Below are positions 6,926-15,817 of a stretch of DNA of 32,466 nucleotides, in pieces. Below the pieces are notes generated by a model. It did no database searches. It was not told where the DNA came from and was given only the letters and a program-made list of their open reading frames with translations. Source of the stretch: a virus; IMG/VR virus record IMGVR_UViG_3300008448_000366, positions 1-32,466 of that record. One strand, given 5' to 3'. Within the stretch, counting starts at the first letter, position 1. Each line of letters opens with the position of its first letter. Made by a program: the position numbers and the translations under genes.

Positions 6926-7738
6926 ATGTCAACAGCACAAAATTTTAAGAACAACGTTATCACTTCAATTTCAATGGACTCTGCAAAGACTCTGGCTCCG
7001 GCTATCTTTGCCACTTCACCTGCTCCAACCATTAAGAGTCCTAAGTATGAATTCACCCCGACCTTTGAGGTTATCAACCACATGCAGGATATGGGTTACT
7101 TGTTGACTGGCGTGAAGCAGTCAAAGTCAAACGTGGACCTACGTAAGAATTGGGGTATCCACATCACCCGCTTCCAACACCCTGACCTCTATATCAAGAA
7201 CCCACAGGGTGAGGTAGAAGCAAGGCCCGAGGTTGTACTGATCAACTCACATGACGGTACAAGGCCTATTCAATTTGAGATGGGCCTGTTCAGGCTTGTA
7301 TGTGAGAATGGTTTGGTGATCAAAGACCAAGACATGGGATCCTTCCGTGAAAGGCATACCAAGCTTAACTTCCAGGCTGTTAAAGATCTTATTGATCAAA
7401 AGGTATCTGGCCTCCAAGAAGTTGTTGGTAAGATCAGTCAATGGAATATGGTAGAGATGACTGACAAACAAAGGTTTAACTTTGCTGTAGAAGCCTTGGC
7501 ATTAAGGATGGGTACTGACCGTCAACCAGAACAGTATGAGATCATGGACATCTTGAACCCTAAACGTAAGGCTGATGAAGGTAATACTTTATGGCAGACC
7601 TATAACGTTCTACAGGAAAACCTGATCAAGGGTGGCTTCCAACTGAACAATAGGCAAGCCCGTGCCATTAAGAACCCTATAGAGGACTTCAACCTGAACC
7701 AAGACCTATGGCAGTTGGCCGATACCTACGTAAAGTAA
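6926..7738 (+). CDS. DUF932 (phage/plasmid-like) protein
   Basis: A 270-residue protein with the hallmarks of DUF932: a mid-protein strand-turn VVLINSHDGT, followed by a QFEMGLFRLVCENGLVI segment (in full-length members F-x-x-x-x-x-R-L-x-C-x-N-G-x) and a helical second half. This family is common on plasmids and phages near replication genes. Members look like DNA- or nucleotide-binding accessory proteins, but no biochemical role is settled. It has its own promoter (6881-6903) and strong leader, and codon use richer in C/G than the neighbours, suggesting high early expression. Length is in the normal range and no break is seen. Confidence 0.85.
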   Translation: MSTAQNFKNNVITSISMDSAKTLAPAIFATSPAPTIKSPKYEFTPTFEVINHMQDMGYLLTGVKQSKSNVDLRKNWGIHITRFQHPDLYIKNPQGEVEARPEVVLINSHDGTRPIQFEMGLFRLVCENGLVIKDQDMGSFRERHTKLNFQAVKDLIDQKVSGLQEVVGKISQWNMVEMTDKQRFNFAVEALALRMGTDRQPEQYEIMDILNPKRKADEGNTLWQTYNVLQENLIKGGFQLNNRQARAIKNPIEDFNLNQDLWQLADTYVK

Positions 7739-10880: not shown

Positions 10881-10909
10881 AGCCTTGGCAATAGCCAGGG
10901 CTTTTTTAT
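10881..10909 (+). terminator. Rho-independent terminator at the convergent junction
   Basis: AGCCTTGGC (10881-10889) pairs with GCCAGGGCT (10894-10902) over 9 bp with one G-U pair and an AATA loop, followed by TTTTTATT. It ends the plus-strand run. The T-tract overlaps the stop codon of the minus-strand gene (10906-10908). Read on the minus strand no U-tract follows, so it works in one direction only. Confidence 0.85.
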
Positions 10910-11361
10910 TGTACGTCTTTTCTGTAAAATCTACCTTGTATATTATCGTTATATGAATCTATATGTAGAACTCTATAGTGCATTTGCCAATATACTTCAT
11001 AGTAGGTTAACTGCTTCTTAGAAAAACAAAATTGAAGGATCTCTCTAGTGAATATATCATCACCCAATTCCTTCCTTTCTTGGTTCAAAAGCTTATTACT
11101 TCCATGGTAAGATAACCAATCAGACTCTTTAATTATCTTTCGTTTGCGTGGGACGCGCCCAGGTTTGTCCCATTCCGCGATCTCCTTCTTGGTTAATGTT
11201 TTACTAGTATTGTTAAAAAGGACCTTTCTACCTATATAGAATTTGTTATTGACAACGTTGGTTATCTTATAGATAAACCCTATGGCTTCAGGGGAAAAAT
11301 CTTCTATCTTATTAAACTCTCTAGTGATTCCTAAAGGATCAAAATATAACCATTTATTCAT
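10906..11361 (-). CDS. SegE-like GIY-YIG endonuclease
   Basis: GFIYKITNVVNNKFYIGRKV (residues 28-47) carries the two GIY-YIG strands with Y-x-I and F-Y-I-G and the nearby Arg45/Lys46. The linker is basic (PRKRKIIKES), then DWLSYHGSNKLL (81-92) is the W-x-x-Y-x-G-S-N signature of SegE-like phage endonucleases. FTREILQFC and LTYYEVYWQ (119-127) follow, Glu122 being the probable metal ligand. Such free-standing genes often move between phages by homing. It is the last gene of the late block. At 151 aa it is complete. Cleavage site and activity are unknown. Confidence 0.75.
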   Translation of the reverse strand: MNKWLYFDPLGITREFNKIEDFSPEAIGFIYKITNVVNNKFYIGRKVLFNNTSKTLTKKEIAEWDKPGRVPRKRKIIKESDWLSYHGSNKLLNQERKELGDDIFTREILQFCFSKKQLTYYEVYWQMHYRVLHIDSYNDNIQGRFYRKDVQ

Positions 11362-11370
11362 ACTATATTT

Positions 11371-11673
11371 TTAACTATCCCACCTTACTATAAAAGTCAT
11401 ATCTGTATTTGGAGGAATGGGGTATGGCCTTGCTAATTTTCCTACAACTAATAGTTCATCACTATCATTATACAGGCCTACCATGGTAGTATATGGATGG
11501 AAGTCTGATCCTGTCACAGCATCTATATATGAACCTGTACCTGTAGATTTAGTAGCACTTGGATTTTGTGTATAATTAAAGTCATTTTCATTTATTCGGC
11601 ATCTTACTTCATTTTGATAAATGGTAGTCTCTGCACTTAAAGACATCGAGTATGGTGAGTAGGCTATCGGCAT
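11371..11673 (-). CDS. Stand-alone copy of a fibre C-terminal domain (100 aa)
   Basis: This protein aligns by eye with the last 80 or so residues of the 343-aa structural protein at 15842-16873. Both show NYT-x-NPS, then a glycine/serine/threonine-rich loop, then P-x-T-x-x-VGLYNDxxELLxVxKLxxP and a final VR/VK-x-D/W strand. The stretch VGLYNDSDELLVVGKLARPY is the clearest part. A virion (tail or capsid decoration) domain that has been duplicated or split off is the likely meaning. Motif B (11675-11686) sits 1 nt before the ATG, so it has its own late promoter element inside the end of the upstream gene. Confidence 0.65.
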   Translation of the reverse strand: MPIAYSPYSMSLSAETTIYQNEVRCRINENDFNYTQNPSATKSTGTGSYIDAVTGSDFHPYTTMVGLYNDSDELLVVGKLARPYPIPPNTDMTFIVRWDS

Positions 11674-11674
11674 A

Positions 11675-11686
11675 CTTATAAATATT
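11675..11686 (-). promoter_or_regulatory. Motif-B element 1 nt before the ATG
   Basis: On the minus strand AATATTTATAAG is followed by T and the ATG (11673-11671). It lies within the last codons of the GT25-like gene. If the element is a -10 box, the message begins at or after the start codon. Confidence 0.5.
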
Positions 11687-12299
11687 TCGCTAAATAAGAA
11701 TCCTTAACATCATTCCATAAGAATCTTGTTATCGGTTCATTGTAATTATTCTGATAGAAATATGGACCGTCTTTTGGGGTTAAGTATAATTTTTCCTTAG
11801 ATCTTAATGCTAAATCTACATCTAAAAACTCATGGGTATTTAATGACTCTTGTATAGACTCTAGTAAGAAGTTTGCTGTATTGATACTAGATACAACCAT
11901 AGTATGCATAGACAACATATAGTAGATTCTATAATACTCTTCATTATACTCCTCTAAATACATATTAGGTTTGTATCCACCTGTTTCATACAAGCTTCCT
12001 CCTAATAATATGAGGCTTTCGGTATCATGTATAGTTATGAATTCAGGCAAATCTTTTATAGGTTCTATATCATCATCCATCATTATAAAAGGATATTTAC
12101 CTATTTCTATTGCTGTATGTAATAGTTTAATTACTCCAAAAGCAATTCTGTCTTGTCTTAAATCTGCTTGGTGTGAATTAGAAATTCTTAAAGCATTTAT
12201 ATTAAGAGATTCTGCTAACTTTTCCATATTAGCTTTCCTTTCTGTATATCCTTCAAAATTAAGATAATAAAAAGGAATGTCTTTTAATTTTATTAACAT
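11676..12299 (-). CDS. GT-A type glycosyltransferase, GT25-like (207 aa)
   Basis: IPFYYLNFEGYTERKANMEK (residues 8-27) matches the opening of GT25-type sugar transferases, where a strand Y-x-I/L-N-L/F is followed by E/D-R-x-x-x-x. YPFIMMDDDIEPIKDLPEF contains the acidic DDD (75-77), the expected metal and nucleotide-sugar site. The remaining chain is alpha/beta with a late acidic/aromatic part. It would transfer a sugar, acceptor unknown. Its start overlaps the GT6-like gene by 7 nt, and an AGGAGG sequence lies a few bases upstream of the ATG, rare in this window. With the two genes before it, it forms a glycosyltransferase trio beside threonine-rich fibre genes. Confidence 0.65.
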   Translation of the reverse strand: MLIKLKDIPFYYLNFEGYTERKANMEKLAESLNINALRISNSHQADLRQDRIAFGVIKLLHTAIEIGKYPFIMMDDDIEPIKDLPEFITIHDTESLILLGGSLYETGGYKPNMYLEEYNEEYYRIYYMLSMHTMVVSSINTANFLLESIQESLNTHEFLDVDLALRSKEKLYLTPKDGPYFYQNNYNEPITRFLWNDVKDSYLAKYL

Positions 12300-13042
12300 A
12301 TAACTCCTCCTCTTATATCAAATGTGTCTTCTTTCATATTAATAAGCTGGGATTTGTACATTTCTATTTCTAATTTAGGGTTTCTTGTTTCTCCTATACC
12401 ACCTTTGTCACTTATATCAAACATGAACTGTTCACATGGAACCGTATATGGCGGATTAAAATGAAAGTACGTATTTATATAACTTTCATCATTACAACCT
12501 GGTTCATAGGGTATTTTTTTATCTTCTATTTGCCAGTTTTGTAAAGTCTTACAAAAGTCTATAACTCTATTTTTTAATCCTCCAAAGAAAGCACCATAGT
12601 GATATGTGTATGGTAGTGGACTATTTATAGGAACATAAGCCTTTGATTGTGGATTCCTATCAAACCCAGCTCCATCTTTTAACCAGCCTTTATTACCATA
12701 ATGTTCACCACCAACTAAATCTCCTAAAAACCACTCTTCTGTAAAATATCTACTGACATTTGTATCAGCATCAAAGTAATATAAGTAATCGCTTTTACAA
12801 TTCTTAAGATTTATTATACTATTGAATTTATCATTTGTACCTTCAACCCAATTACTGTGGTGAGTCTCAAAAAATTCTATATCAATATCGTCTTTTACAA
12901 ATGATCGTGGATCTGTATCTGAAAAGAAATAAAAAGTTATATCTTTATTTCCTTCATAATAATGCATAAACTTTTTTATAAAACGAACACCTAAGACAAA
13001 ATATGCATTTGTTGCTAGTATAACTATTCCTATATTAGGCAT
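12293..13042 (-). CDS. GT6 (ABO-like) glycosyltransferase
   Basis: The order and spacing of motifs match family GT6. The N-terminal strand IGIVILATNAYFVLG comes first, then FYFFSDTDP, and YLYYFDADTNV (DAD at residues 91-93, the DxD metal site). FTEEWFLGDLVGGEHYG, QSKAYVPINSPLPY with YHYGAFFGG (compare QSQAYIP and GGFFGG of the human A/B enzymes) and CNDESYINTYFHFNPPYTV (compare HDESHLNKY) complete it. The end has FDISDKGGIGETRNPK. Bacterial GT6 enzymes often have NxN instead of DxD; this one keeps DxD, as reported for a cyanophage relative. Likely activity: transfer of a galactose-type sugar to an acceptor with alpha linkage. Overlaps both neighbours (13 and 7 nt). Confidence 0.85.
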   Translation of the reverse strand: MPNIGIVILATNAYFVLGVRFIKKFMHYYEGNKDITFYFFSDTDPRSFVKDDIDIEFFETHHSNWVEGTNDKFNSIINLKNCKSDYLYYFDADTNVSRYFTEEWFLGDLVGGEHYGNKGWLKDGAGFDRNPQSKAYVPINSPLPYTYHYGAFFGGLKNRVIDFCKTLQNWQIEDKKIPYEPGCNDESYINTYFHFNPPYTVPCEQFMFDISDKGGIGETRNPKLEIEMYKSQLINMKEDTFDIRGGVIC

Positions 13043-13986
13043 GATTTTACTTCTATTTCTTTTATTTCTTGATAATATAAATGACTACAGTTATTATCTT
13101 TTGTTCTTAGGTCTAAATTATAAGGTAGTGTTGTTATATAATTGGCTTTATAAAACTTTCCTCCACAACTACAAGTTACCCCAGCATTATGATATATAGT
13201 TGTTTCTTCCCATCTATTAATATCATCAGTTCCCCAACAAAAATCCATTTCAGGAATTACTTTAGTTTCATTTCCTAATAACCATCCGTTCCAAAGAACA
13301 GACCACATATCAGCACACCATATTTGGAGTTCATGATAGTCTGGATTTTCTAATTTTTTTTGTACGTTTATTTCTGTTATATCTTTGAATAGTTTTTCAC
13401 AATCCCTCTCTACTTTTTCCCAATAGGTATCAGTTACATTTTTCATAAGATATTGTGCACCACCTGAATTGGAATTCATAAGTTGGGGTATGATTGGATT
13501 CATTCCTATTATCTCACACATTTTATCATAAATGTCTTGCCCTTTAGATACAATATAGTCATAATTAATATACGAATTAGTATTACTTAAATACCATATA
13601 TCATCATTTATGAAATTAGACCAATTAGGACTTTTAGTAAATACTATATCACAATCATGATAGAATATAGCCTCGTCTTTTAATTCTGGATAAGCTTTGA
13701 AGTGTTGCTTCAGAATATTTGGTCTAATAGAAGATATATAGTTGATAGGTAGTTCTCTTGTATCTTGATAAAAAAAGAAACGAACAGAATTATAATATGA
13801 AGCTAGTTTATCCCAAAGTTCTATATTCTCTGGTCTACTAGTATCGTCATTAGGATTTGAAGCAACTAGAATATCAATATTATTAGGATTGATACCGTGC
13901 TTAATAAAGTTATTAATCATAACTTCTACTTGCCAAGCATAGTATAATAGTCTAGGTTGGACACAAACATAACGTAAATTTTTCAT
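13030..13986 (-). CDS. GT-A fold glycosyltransferase-like protein (318 aa)
   Basis: N-terminal strand-helix RYVCVQPRLLYYAWQVEVMI and NNIDILVASNPND resemble the nucleotide-binding half of GT-A enzymes. AIFYHDCDIVFTKSP places a DxD-type DCD at residues 111-113. NSGGAQYLMKNV and the later ADMWSVLWNGWL are also typical of such enzymes (an acceptor-side NSGG and a W-rich helix), and TTIYHNAGVTCSCGGKFYK supplies a histidine-aglycone motif and a cysteine pair. No membrane anchor is visible, so it acts in the cytoplasm. It follows the Thr-rich gene by 19 nt and overlaps the GT6 gene by 13 nt. Family within GT-A is not fixed. Confidence 0.65.
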   Translation of the reverse strand: MKNLRYVCVQPRLLYYAWQVEVMINNFIKHGINPNNIDILVASNPNDDTSRPENIELWDKLASYYNSVRFFFYQDTRELPINYISSIRPNILKQHFKAYPELKDEAIFYHDCDIVFTKSPNWSNFINDDIWYLSNTNSYINYDYIVSKGQDIYDKMCEIIGMNPIIPQLMNSNSGGAQYLMKNVTDTYWEKVERDCEKLFKDITEINVQKKLENPDYHELQIWCADMWSVLWNGWLLGNETKVIPEMDFCWGTDDINRWEETTIYHNAGVTCSCGGKFYKANYITTLPYNLDLRTKDNNCSHLYYQEIKEIEVKSCLI

Positions 13987-14005
13987 AACAATTTTATTTT
14001 ATATA

Positions 14006-15001
14006 TTAACAAATTCCCTGATTGTCTCCATTTACGGTGAAATAGTAAGTCCTATTAATATTAGTTAATGAAGACCAACTACACTGTTGACCAGTGAAAG
14101 AAGGACATGTAGAAGTATCTCTAGCAGATTCCCACACGTTATTTACATTACCAGCTTCAGTAATTCTAATACTTAATGTAGATCCCTGTTGAACAGTTAT
14201 AACACCTCTTTGGCTACAAGTAGTATCAGTAAATGAAGATCCTACACCCGTCCAGTTACTACCCCCATCAGTAGAATACGCAAATTGAAGCGATGGGAAA
14301 GTAGACGATCCAGCATCATGAGCACCAAAAAGGGTTATATTAACATCTGGAATAGTTGTAGTAGTTGTAGTTGTACTTGTTGTTGTAGTTGTACTAGTCG
14401 TACTAGTTGTACTAGTTGTACTAGTTGTACTTGTTGTTGTAGTAGTACAAGAGGTTTGACCACTTAATACTCCTGATGTAGCTAACCAATAATTTGTTCC
14501 ATCTGAATAATATCCATCGGTTACTGTTACAGATAATGAAGTATTTGTATATAATGTAGTTCCATTAGTTAATGTAGATCCAGCAGAAGCAAAATAAGTA
14601 TTAGGATCTATACTATAATCAGAGCATGCGCCGGCTCCAGTAGATCCATCATATCCTAAAAGGAATGACTCGTATCCTAAAGTTGTGGTTGTAGTAGTTG
14701 TACTAGTTGTAGTTGTCGTAGTTGGCGCGGCAGTTGTTGTAGTACTTGTGGTACTTGTAGTAGTAGTTGTAGTCGTTGCAACTATAGTTAAATCAATATA
14801 GTTTGTGCAAGCACCAGTAGACTTTACCCTTATAATAGTGGCAGAATCAGGAACTGTAACTGAGGTATATCCAGATATAAGAGATGATTTACTAACACCA
14901 CTTTCAAATGGAGAAGTATAAGAATCTGAATCTGAATAAAGATCAAATGGCCCTGTATCTGATCCTGCTGTAGTTAGAGTTATTAATACTGATTTTGCCA
15001 T
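14006..15001 (-). CDS. Modular Thr-rich adhesin/fibre protein (331 aa)
   Basis: Three compact domains are joined by two threonine/serine tracts: domain 1 about residues 1-75 (beta-rich, with GYTSVTVPDSATIIRVKSTG), linker 1 at 76-107 (with one AAP), domain 2 about 108-185 (two Cys), linker 2 at 186-216, and domain 3 about 217-331 (FAYSTDGGSNWTGVGSSF, four Cys, ending in Cys). Threonine-rich spacers of this type are known in viral and bacterial surface proteins and are candidates for O-glycosylation. No signal peptide is seen, as expected for a virion protein. It is preceded by motif B and sits just upstream of three glycosyltransferase genes. The exact virion location is inferred (fibre or head decoration). 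Confidence 0.7.
   Translation of the reverse strand: MAKSVLITLTTAGSDTGPFDLYSDSDSYTSPFESGVSKSSLISGYTSVTVPDSATIIRVKSTGACTNYIDLTIVATTTTTTTSTTSTTTTAAPTTTTTTSTTTTTTTLGYESFLLGYDGSTGAGACSDYSIDPNTYFASAGSTLTNGTTLYTNTSLSVTVTDGYYSDGTNYWLATSGVLSGQTSCTTTTTSTTSTTSTTSTTSTTTTTSTTTTTTTIPDVNITLFGAHDAGSSTFPSLQFAYSTDGGSNWTGVGSSFTDTTCSQRGVITVQQGSTLSIRITEAGNVNNVWESARDTSTCPSFTGQQCSWSSLTNINRTYYFTVNGDNQGIC
14391..14435. repeat. 9-bp tandem repeat in linker 2
   Basis: Five units of the GTACTAGTT type (14391-14399, 14400-14408, 14409-14417, 14418-14426, 14427-14435; the first and last with one change each) encode TST-like units on the minus strand. Because the unit is a multiple of three, gain or loss of copies changes linker length without breaking the frame. 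Confidence 0.75.
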
Positions 15002-15003
15002 AT

Positions 15004-15031
15004 CTTATAAATATAGTATTTTATAAATATT
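15004..15031 (-). promoter_or_regulatory. Two tandem motif-B elements before the Thr-rich gene
   Basis: On the minus strand AATATTTATAA (15031-15021) is followed by ATATTTATAAG (15014-15004), then AT and the ATG (15001-14999). The second copy has the same 2-nt spacer as the one before the 681-aa structural gene (25953). Confidence 0.5.
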
Positions 15032-15817
15032 CTACACCTGTTGAGCTGTTCCTCCTAGTGTACAATCCGGTGCTATAGTAGTTGTTGTACTAGTTGTGCT
15101 TGTTGTTGTTGTAGTTGGTGCAACTGTAGTGGTACTAGTTGTTGTTGTAGTTGGAGCTGCTGTTGTTGTTGTACTAGTTGTGCTAGTTGTTGTTGTAGTT
15201 GGAGCTGCTGTTGTTGTTGTACTAGTTGTGCTAGTTGTTGTTGGATTTATACCTTCTAATATAGCAGTTCCTGAAAGATCACATACAGTATTAATTAAAG
15301 CGTATTCATAATCAAGATTGGTAATAATTACTACGCCCTGATGATAAAGAACATTACCTACATGAACATTATTATTATTACTATCTAATACATTACCATT
15401 TCCATCATCAATTAATCTATAAGTACTTCCTGATATAACTAATGTTTTTCTTCCCACGTTTTCTCCAAATACAGATCTTGGCATTGCGAGGACTGTAATT
15501 TTTGCATTAGACTCTGTAGGGAAATATCTAAAGTCATTATCAAATGTGCCGGAAGCAGCCGTTGATTGCAAAGTTGGATCCCAATAACTAGCAGTATTTA
15601 ATAATGAACCCGTAATATATTCTTGATAGTATAATTGTCTTACTAAAGCGTAGTTAAGAAATGTAATTCCGTTACTATTAAATGAGGTATTGATACCTCT
15701 ATTAACTGTAATACCGTAATCATATGCAGACGCACTAAGATATGTTGCCGAGTATTTAAGTTTAATAGGATATGTAGAAATATCTGATCTGTCCAGCGTA
15801 TTTTTTGACAATCCCAT
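15032..15817 (-). CDS. Structural protein with C-terminal Thr-rich tail (261 aa)
   Basis: Residues 1-190 form a conserved-looking module with LKYSATYLSASAYDYGITVN and LVRQLYYQEYITGSLLN, ending in VGNVLYHQGVVIITNLDYEY. I recall related modules in uncultured aquatic T4-like phages as tail or baseplate-associated proteins. Residues 193-247 are a Thr/Ser/Ala/Pro tract made of a 16-residue unit (TTTTTSTTSTTTTAAP) in tandem, followed by a short APDCTLGGTAQQV end. The tail could be glycosylated or act as a stalk. The same low-complexity units occur in the next gene, which points to recombination between the two. Confidence 0.65.
   Translation of the reverse strand: MGLSKNTLDRSDISTYPIKLKYSATYLSASAYDYGITVNRGINTSFNSNGITFLNYALVRQLYYQEYITGSLLNTASYWDPTLQSTAASGTFDNDFRYFPTESNAKITVLAMPRSVFGENVGRKTLVISGSTYRLIDDGNGNVLDSNNNNVHVGNVLYHQGVVIITNLDYEYALINTVCDLSGTAILEGINPTTTSTTSTTTTAAPTTTTTSTTSTTTTAAPTTTTTSTTTVAPTTTTTSTTSTTTTIAPDCTLGGTAQQV
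15135..15243. repeat. 48-bp tandem repeat coding a 16-aa unit
   Basis: The sequence from about 15135 to 15243 is periodic at 48 bp with perfect identity between copies (for example GGAGCTGCTG at 15153 and at 15201). It encodes TTTTTSTTSTTTTAAP on the minus strand and gives about 2.25 copies. Copy-number change would alter the Thr tail by 16 residues in frame. Confidence 0.85.

Follow-up and report, generated by a model that had tools for sequence, protein, structure and literature searches.

Phage particles are usually regarded as unglycosylated. The exceptions named in the literature found are mainly mycobacteriophages, which, according to two reports, glycosylate their capsid and tail-tube proteins with glycosyltransferases (GTs) of their own (PMC12363180; PMC12619734). 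In phage Che8, for which these reports cite Freeman et al. (2023), the glycans are reported to be located at the C termini of the capsid and tail-tube proteins (PMC12363180; PMC12619734). The candidate system described here resides in the IMG/VR virus record IMGVR_UViG_3300008448_000366, a partial genome that was analysed over its whole length of 32,466 bases (hereafter, the window). It is composed of two genes with long Thr tracts, T1 and T2, followed by three GT genes, GT1 to GT3, the whole being enclosed in an interrupted virion gene. We consider it likely that this locus makes glycosylated virion proteins, in which GT1 would prime O-glycans on the Thr tracts and variable partner enzymes would extend them.

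Organisation of the locus

T1 and T2, and then GT1, GT2, and GT3, follow each other on the minus strand nearly without gaps. All the open reading frames (ORFs) of an earlier reading made from the letters alone (the sequence-only reading) were recovered at the same positions on this strand, with overlaps of exactly 13 nucleotides (nt; 13030-13042) and 7 nt (12293-12299). The span of that reading starts at 11371 without naming the ORF 11371-11673, which is included below.

15032..15817, minus strand: T1, 261 amino acids (aa); composed of the N half (~aa 1-171, nt 15305-15817) of an ancestral baseplate/fibre protein and a Thr tract; predicted glycan acceptor
15059..15253, minus strand: Thr tract of T1, 65 aa, with 40 T, 7 S, 6 A, and 5 P
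14006..15001, minus strand: T2, 331 aa; two Thr tracts connecting small domains that contain Cys; also a predicted acceptor
14672..14791, minus strand: first Thr tract of T2, 40 aa
14342..14464, minus strand: second Thr tract of T2, 41 aa
13030..13986, minus strand: GT1, 318 aa, phrog_4417, GT-A fold; predicted priming poly-Thr O-glycosyltransferase
12293..13042, minus strand: GT2, 249 aa, Glyco_transf_6 / phrog_3317; predicted glycan-extending enzyme
11676..12299, minus strand: GT3, 207 aa, phrog_24091, putative GT-A fold; predicted extending enzyme
11371..11673, minus strand: C half of the ancestral T1 gene, now displaced and having an ATG of its own
10906..11361, minus strand: SegE-like GIY-YIG endonuclease gene, directly behind the locus

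The long Thr tracts, already pointed out in the sequence-only reading, are real: that of T1 spans 65 residues (40 Thr), and the two tracts of T2 together span 81 (53 Thr). Their Thr codons are mixed, with ACA 27/ACT 12/ACC 1 in T1 and ACT 24/ACA 23/ACG 3/ACC 3 in T2. The tracts are therefore not pure nucleotide repeats, and pure repeat expansion is disfavoured as their origin. In the close relative L010, the C-terminal part of T2 is fused to T1.

Association of GT1 with Thr tracts

Loci of the window's lineage were collected partly via GT1 and partly via a neighbouring gene; the test is one of association given the GT1 state, not of frequency. Among the 82 loci in which the region is complete, 26 possess both GT1 and a tract, six GT1 only, one a tract only, and 49 neither. 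After dereplication at 90%, these numbers become 9/1/1/28 (Fisher p 5e-7). Thr runs occur in two of the whole records of 27 cassette-less relatives, with one match each, and GT1 was not found in 26 of these 27 records nor in Flavobacterium phage immuto. The tree of the neighbouring gene requires seven changes of GT1 state.

The pairing extends beyond this lineage. Viral contigs yielded 299 relatives of GT1, of which 80 were retained, and 74 loci came from scanning bacterial genomes. A tract is present in the gene immediately upstream of GT1 at 54 of 81 loci (median gap 19 nt), as against 21 of 1732 other ORFs of related contigs (~1%). In Chryseobacterium phage MA9V-3, an isolate from another lineage, the GT1 homologue stands behind two Thr-rich genes. 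In the Bacillota phages phiFL1A, VPE25, bIL285, SA2, Semele, and iLp84, it lies near poly-Thr-tailed tail-tube, Ig-like, or other structural proteins, and in phage 521B near a looser Thr/Pro tail. In each of the 34 Bacillota prophage loci, at least one protein near GT1 has a poly-Thr tail at its C terminus; 28 loci have at least two such proteins, and 11 have at least three. The tailed proteins of loci L351 and L354 are Phage_capsid, the Phage_TTP_1 tail tube, and a small protein of the same cluster, and the capsid and tail tube of one prophage display near-identical poly-Thr endings. The tail tubes of the GT1-bearing phages phiFL1A and R3.3 carry a Thr run, that of R3.3 ending with VTTTTTTSHA, and none of the tail-tube homologues from nine phages without GT1 has a Thr run of four or more. 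As a separate observation, the tail-tube gene of Staphylococcus phage SA2 (L168:2617-3430) ends shortly past its Thr run, and an overlapping frame goes on for about 50 Thr-rich residues, as though part of the tail-tube subunits received a long Thr tail through a frameshift.

Several points limit, or weigh against, the reading of the Thr tracts as the acceptors of GT1. There are only four supported independent contrasts; the tract is never opposite to GT1 in them, which alone is not significant. In five near relatives (L030, L035, L037, L085, and L086), an intact GT1 stands beside a T1 that ends before the tract, and L141 is also among the loci with GT1 and no tract. No Thr run was found in L037, which at 54.8 kb is the longest contig of the tract-less near relatives, nor in the 142 kb of L053. 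Furthermore, when poly-Thr loci were taken from unselected viral contigs, only 8 of the 41 with sequence downstream contained GT1. The tract-less GT1 contigs may be fragments, or GT1 may use other acceptors there. The sequence-only reading had named a GT trio devoid of any Thr-rich gene as evidence against itself: every GT1-GT2-GT3 locus with its upstream gene in view has such a gene, although GT1 alone is found beside the tract-less T1 of the five near relatives. 

Two broader statements were also considered. The view that the link is refuted by GT1 loci without a tract in other lineages was partly rejected, Thr runs being present elsewhere in 9 of 22 such records compared to the 2 of 27 cassette-less ones, and many of the other 13 being short. 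That tracts always come with GT1 was rejected: most poly-Thr loci in unselected viral contigs are without it, and Thr tracts thus also have other roles or enzymes.

A split ancestral gene as insertion site

At the place of the locus, many cassette-less relatives harbor a single gene of about 270-340 aa. Residues 1-171 of T1 match residues 1-171 of this fused gene in L089 with 61% identity, and residues 1-181 match that of L087 with 43%. Residues 5-100 of the ORF 11371-11673 match residues 174-269 of the L089 fused gene, i.e., its last 96 aa, with 74% identity, and this ORF is 45% identical to the end of immuto_165; L087, L094, and immuto_165 all agree with the split. The split form is found in 32 of 32 loci with GT1 and the fused form in 42 of 50 loci without it. 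The Thr tract, T2, and GT1-3 are therefore located inside an interrupted ancestral virion gene, the N half of which is T1 and the C half the ORF 11371-11673. The sequence-only reading had seen a fibre cassette: its grouping of Thr-rich genes with GTs stands, but it is not a simple fibre operon, since the cassette splits an ancestral gene.

Seven further loci are split without GT1 and are mostly filled by other, non-Thr domains. In L097, L099, L101, and L103, non-Thr domains added at this split point bring T1 to ~1000 aa; these loci have no GT, and their C half is separate. The split site thus also takes other inserts. Whether the site is filled or empty, the SegE-like GIY-YIG gene comes next, and it could possibly have a role in cassette exchange.

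Exchangeable partner genes

Zero to six genes, differing between phages, are found between GT1 and the C half. They encode GT2, GT6, Gly_transf_sug, GT61-like, Fringe-like, and TOD1-like proteins, methyltransferases (FkbM and others), and an NAD-dependent epimerase. The GT trio, taken as a unit in the sequence-only reading, was rejected as a conserved module: GT1 alone is constant and its downstream partners are swapped. As GT1 comes first in nearly every cassette of the window's lineage and can be alone (it is the sole enzyme in L085), this arrangement suggests that it starts the glycan, which the other enzymes vary. In L035, L037, and L086 (12238-13269 in L086), a radical-SAM/SPASM enzyme replaces the extra GTs, and a T1 without tract is found in the same group.

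Structure predictions of the three enzymes

GT1 is a clear member of phrog_4417 (profile E 3e-62, full length, residues 5-312). This family has no assigned function in PHROGs, and the poly-Thr association is absent from its entry. GT1 has no match in Pfam (up to E 1) or NCBIfam, and no GT8-family match was found among 47 relatives either; it is not a GT8 member by sequence profile, and its likeness to GT8 is in fold only. A sequence search of GT1 against solved structures returned nothing meaningful. Its AlphaFold2 model, obtained from 47 relatives, has a predicted local distance difference test (pLDDT) of 96.3, and glycogenin (Z 15.6), LgtC (Z 14.8), and UGGT (Z 14.2) are the solved structures that it matches best. 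The top-ranked chains, with Z of 13-15.6, are all GT-A enzymes. These nearest solved folds, glycogenin and LgtC from GT8 and UGGT from GT24, have a DxD motif and a C-terminal His-x-x-Gly motif in common with GT1, whereas identity is only 7-11% and the acceptors differ. D110xD112 and H265NAG268 are invariant among the 47 close relatives and nearly invariant in the wider family. GT1 is confidently predicted as a GT8-like GT-A enzyme.

GT2 belongs to Pfam Glyco_transf_6 (GT6) with an E value of 4.5e-12 and 45.8 bits for a gathering cut-off of 25, and scores under the cut-off of NCBIfam NF041524. The GT3 model was obtained from seven sequences and has a pLDDT of 73. Its best Foldseek matches are GT25-like GT-A enzymes (prob 1.00, template-modelling score ~0.5), and the structures nearest to this medium-confidence model are LgtB-type enzymes, COLGALT1, mimivirus R655 (9crz), and a PBCV-1 capsid glycosyltransferase (2p6w). 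The assignment of the proteins to GT-A enzymes, proposed from the outset for all three, holds by a Pfam match for GT2 and a confident model for GT1, and is tentative for GT3, by a medium-confidence model. By inspection, no evident membrane segment is present in the GT1-GT3 translations, and the cassette holds no flippase or polyprenyl-GT partner.

Chromosomal Bacteroidota relatives of GT1 are longer (500-580 aa) and sit in clusters of the peptide-export type; one that was scanned displays a weak Glyco_transf_7C match. At L313:247-492, L320:5630-5866, L328:5609-5857, and in their neighbours, GT1 relatives are close to double-glycine-leader precursor peptides, some of which include the stretch TTTTTT, and a C39 ATP-binding cassette exporter is present in one cluster. 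These clusters are possibly a glycosylated-peptide pathway.

Genomic context

Baseplate wedge proteins are encoded in the right part of the window, in the same order as in Flavobacterium phage immuto and Microcystis phage Mel-JY01, and no near relative at the nucleotide level was found among the phage records searched. The genes of the locus lie between large baseplate-type genes and what is, in the relative immuto, the tail-fibre region; the fibre identity given to T1 and T2 initially is putative. Elsewhere in the window, a 270-aa protein (6926-7738, plus strand) matches phrog_12094, a family of unknown function (E 3e-40).

Proposed mechanism and alternative explanations

We infer the catalysis, order of action, sugar identity, acceptor residues, and selective benefit of this system as follows. 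GT1, as a cytoplasmic enzyme, would act ahead of virion assembly and place the first sugar on Thr/Ser residues of the low-complexity T1 and T2 tracts, probably from a uridine diphosphate (UDP)-sugar donor and with retention. GT2 (GT6) and GT3 (GT25-like) would then lengthen the glycan. Given that relatives have the same GT1 followed by other enzymes, the glycan is probably variable from phage to phage, in a serotype-like manner. Such virion glycans could influence adsorption, protease resistance, and antibody recognition. The idea that phage enzymes glycosylate Thr tracts of the phage's own virion proteins, present in the sequence-only reading, has gained strong comparative support from two phyla and from unrelated acceptor proteins.

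GTs of phages can have other targets. Those that glycosylate DNA are well known (PMC12619734), and GT1-3 might decorate the phage DNA at hypermodified bases, their adjacency to Thr-rich genes being accidental. This is very improbable: in 54 of 81 loci, the gene just ahead of GT1 has a tract, and in 34 of 34 Bacillota loci, GT1 is near capsid or tail-tube poly-Thr tails, within structural operons; the methyltransferases and epimerases among its partners suit a glycan locus. The host surface is another candidate target, to be altered as by seroconversion genes, through receptor masking or superinfection exclusion, and GTs of this general kind (LgtC and LgtB-type folds) do work on cell surface glycans. 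However, the enzymes are devoid of evident membrane segments, the cassette is devoid of a flippase or polyprenyl-GT partner, and its location is inside a structural gene. Nor would host modification explain why GT1 is repeatedly paired with poly-Thr on virion proteins that are unrelated to each other, and we hold it to be highly unlikely.

Closer to the proposed mechanism, GT1 could glycosylate virion proteins mainly outside the Thr tracts, the latter being flexible linkers that travel with exchangeable adhesin domains. The presence of GT1 without a tract in L030/L035/L085/L086/L141, the common occurrence of tracts without GT1 elsewhere, and the GT-less domain insertions at the same split point in L097, L099, L101, and L103 are all in its favour. 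In Bacillota, however, GT1 is accompanied by short poly-Thr C-tails, which are not interdomain linkers, are near-identical between the capsid and the tail tube in one prophage, and are missing in the homologues of phages that lack GT1, making a linker role unlikely as the explanation. Priming by GT1 on the tracts remains preferred. With somewhat less assurance than for the window itself, phrog_4417 would probably be a dedicated poly-Thr O-glycosyltransferase family that serves, across several phyla, Thr tags on virion proteins as unrelated as capsid, tail tube, and baseplate/fibre; among myophages of the Bacteroidota type, it would head an exchangeable glycan locus in a split virion gene, giving variable surface glycan types.

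Significance and comparison with known systems

Phage particles that bear sugars may be far more common than is now known. The pair formed by a phrog_4417 gene and a poly-Thr tract would make glycosylated virions predictable from the sequences of many phages of Bacillota and Bacteroidota, cultured ones included. With its exchangeable enzymes, the locus would be the phage counterpart of the glycan-type loci of bacteria, and the phrog_4417 family provides a candidate enzyme that is cytoplasmic and whose acceptor would be a simple Thr repeat. No description of a phage glycosyltransferase paired with poly-Thr tracts was found in the searchable literature, most subscription papers being outside it.

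Among the described systems, that of Che8, as given in the reports cited above, also relies on phage-encoded GTs that modify the phage's own virion proteins and on three adjacent GT genes, and its glycosylated capsid and tail tube are the same two proteins that carry poly-Thr tails in Bacillota prophages. Che8 gp108-110 and GT1-3 have no significant match by hidden Markov model or BLASTP, and a GT1-family profile search finds nothing in Che8. The Che8 GTs are far from the capsid and tail genes, whereas the present enzymes adjoin a predicted Thr-tract acceptor, and no Thr tract is present at the C termini of the Che8 capsid and tail-tube proteins. The capsid/fibre glycosylation of chlorovirus PBCV-1 and mimivirus likewise involves cytoplasmic glycan assembly by several virus-encoded GTs, and the predicted fold of GT3 is close to theirs; these are, however, eukaryotic viruses with other acceptors, and the likeness comes from the medium-confidence GT3 model, not from sequence. 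Since mycobacteriophages glycosylate their own capsid and tail-tube proteins, virion glycosylation is already known as a kind of system, to which the present locus appears to add an enzyme family, a Thr-tract acceptor, a split-gene site, and an exchangeable partner set that are new to the searchable literature.

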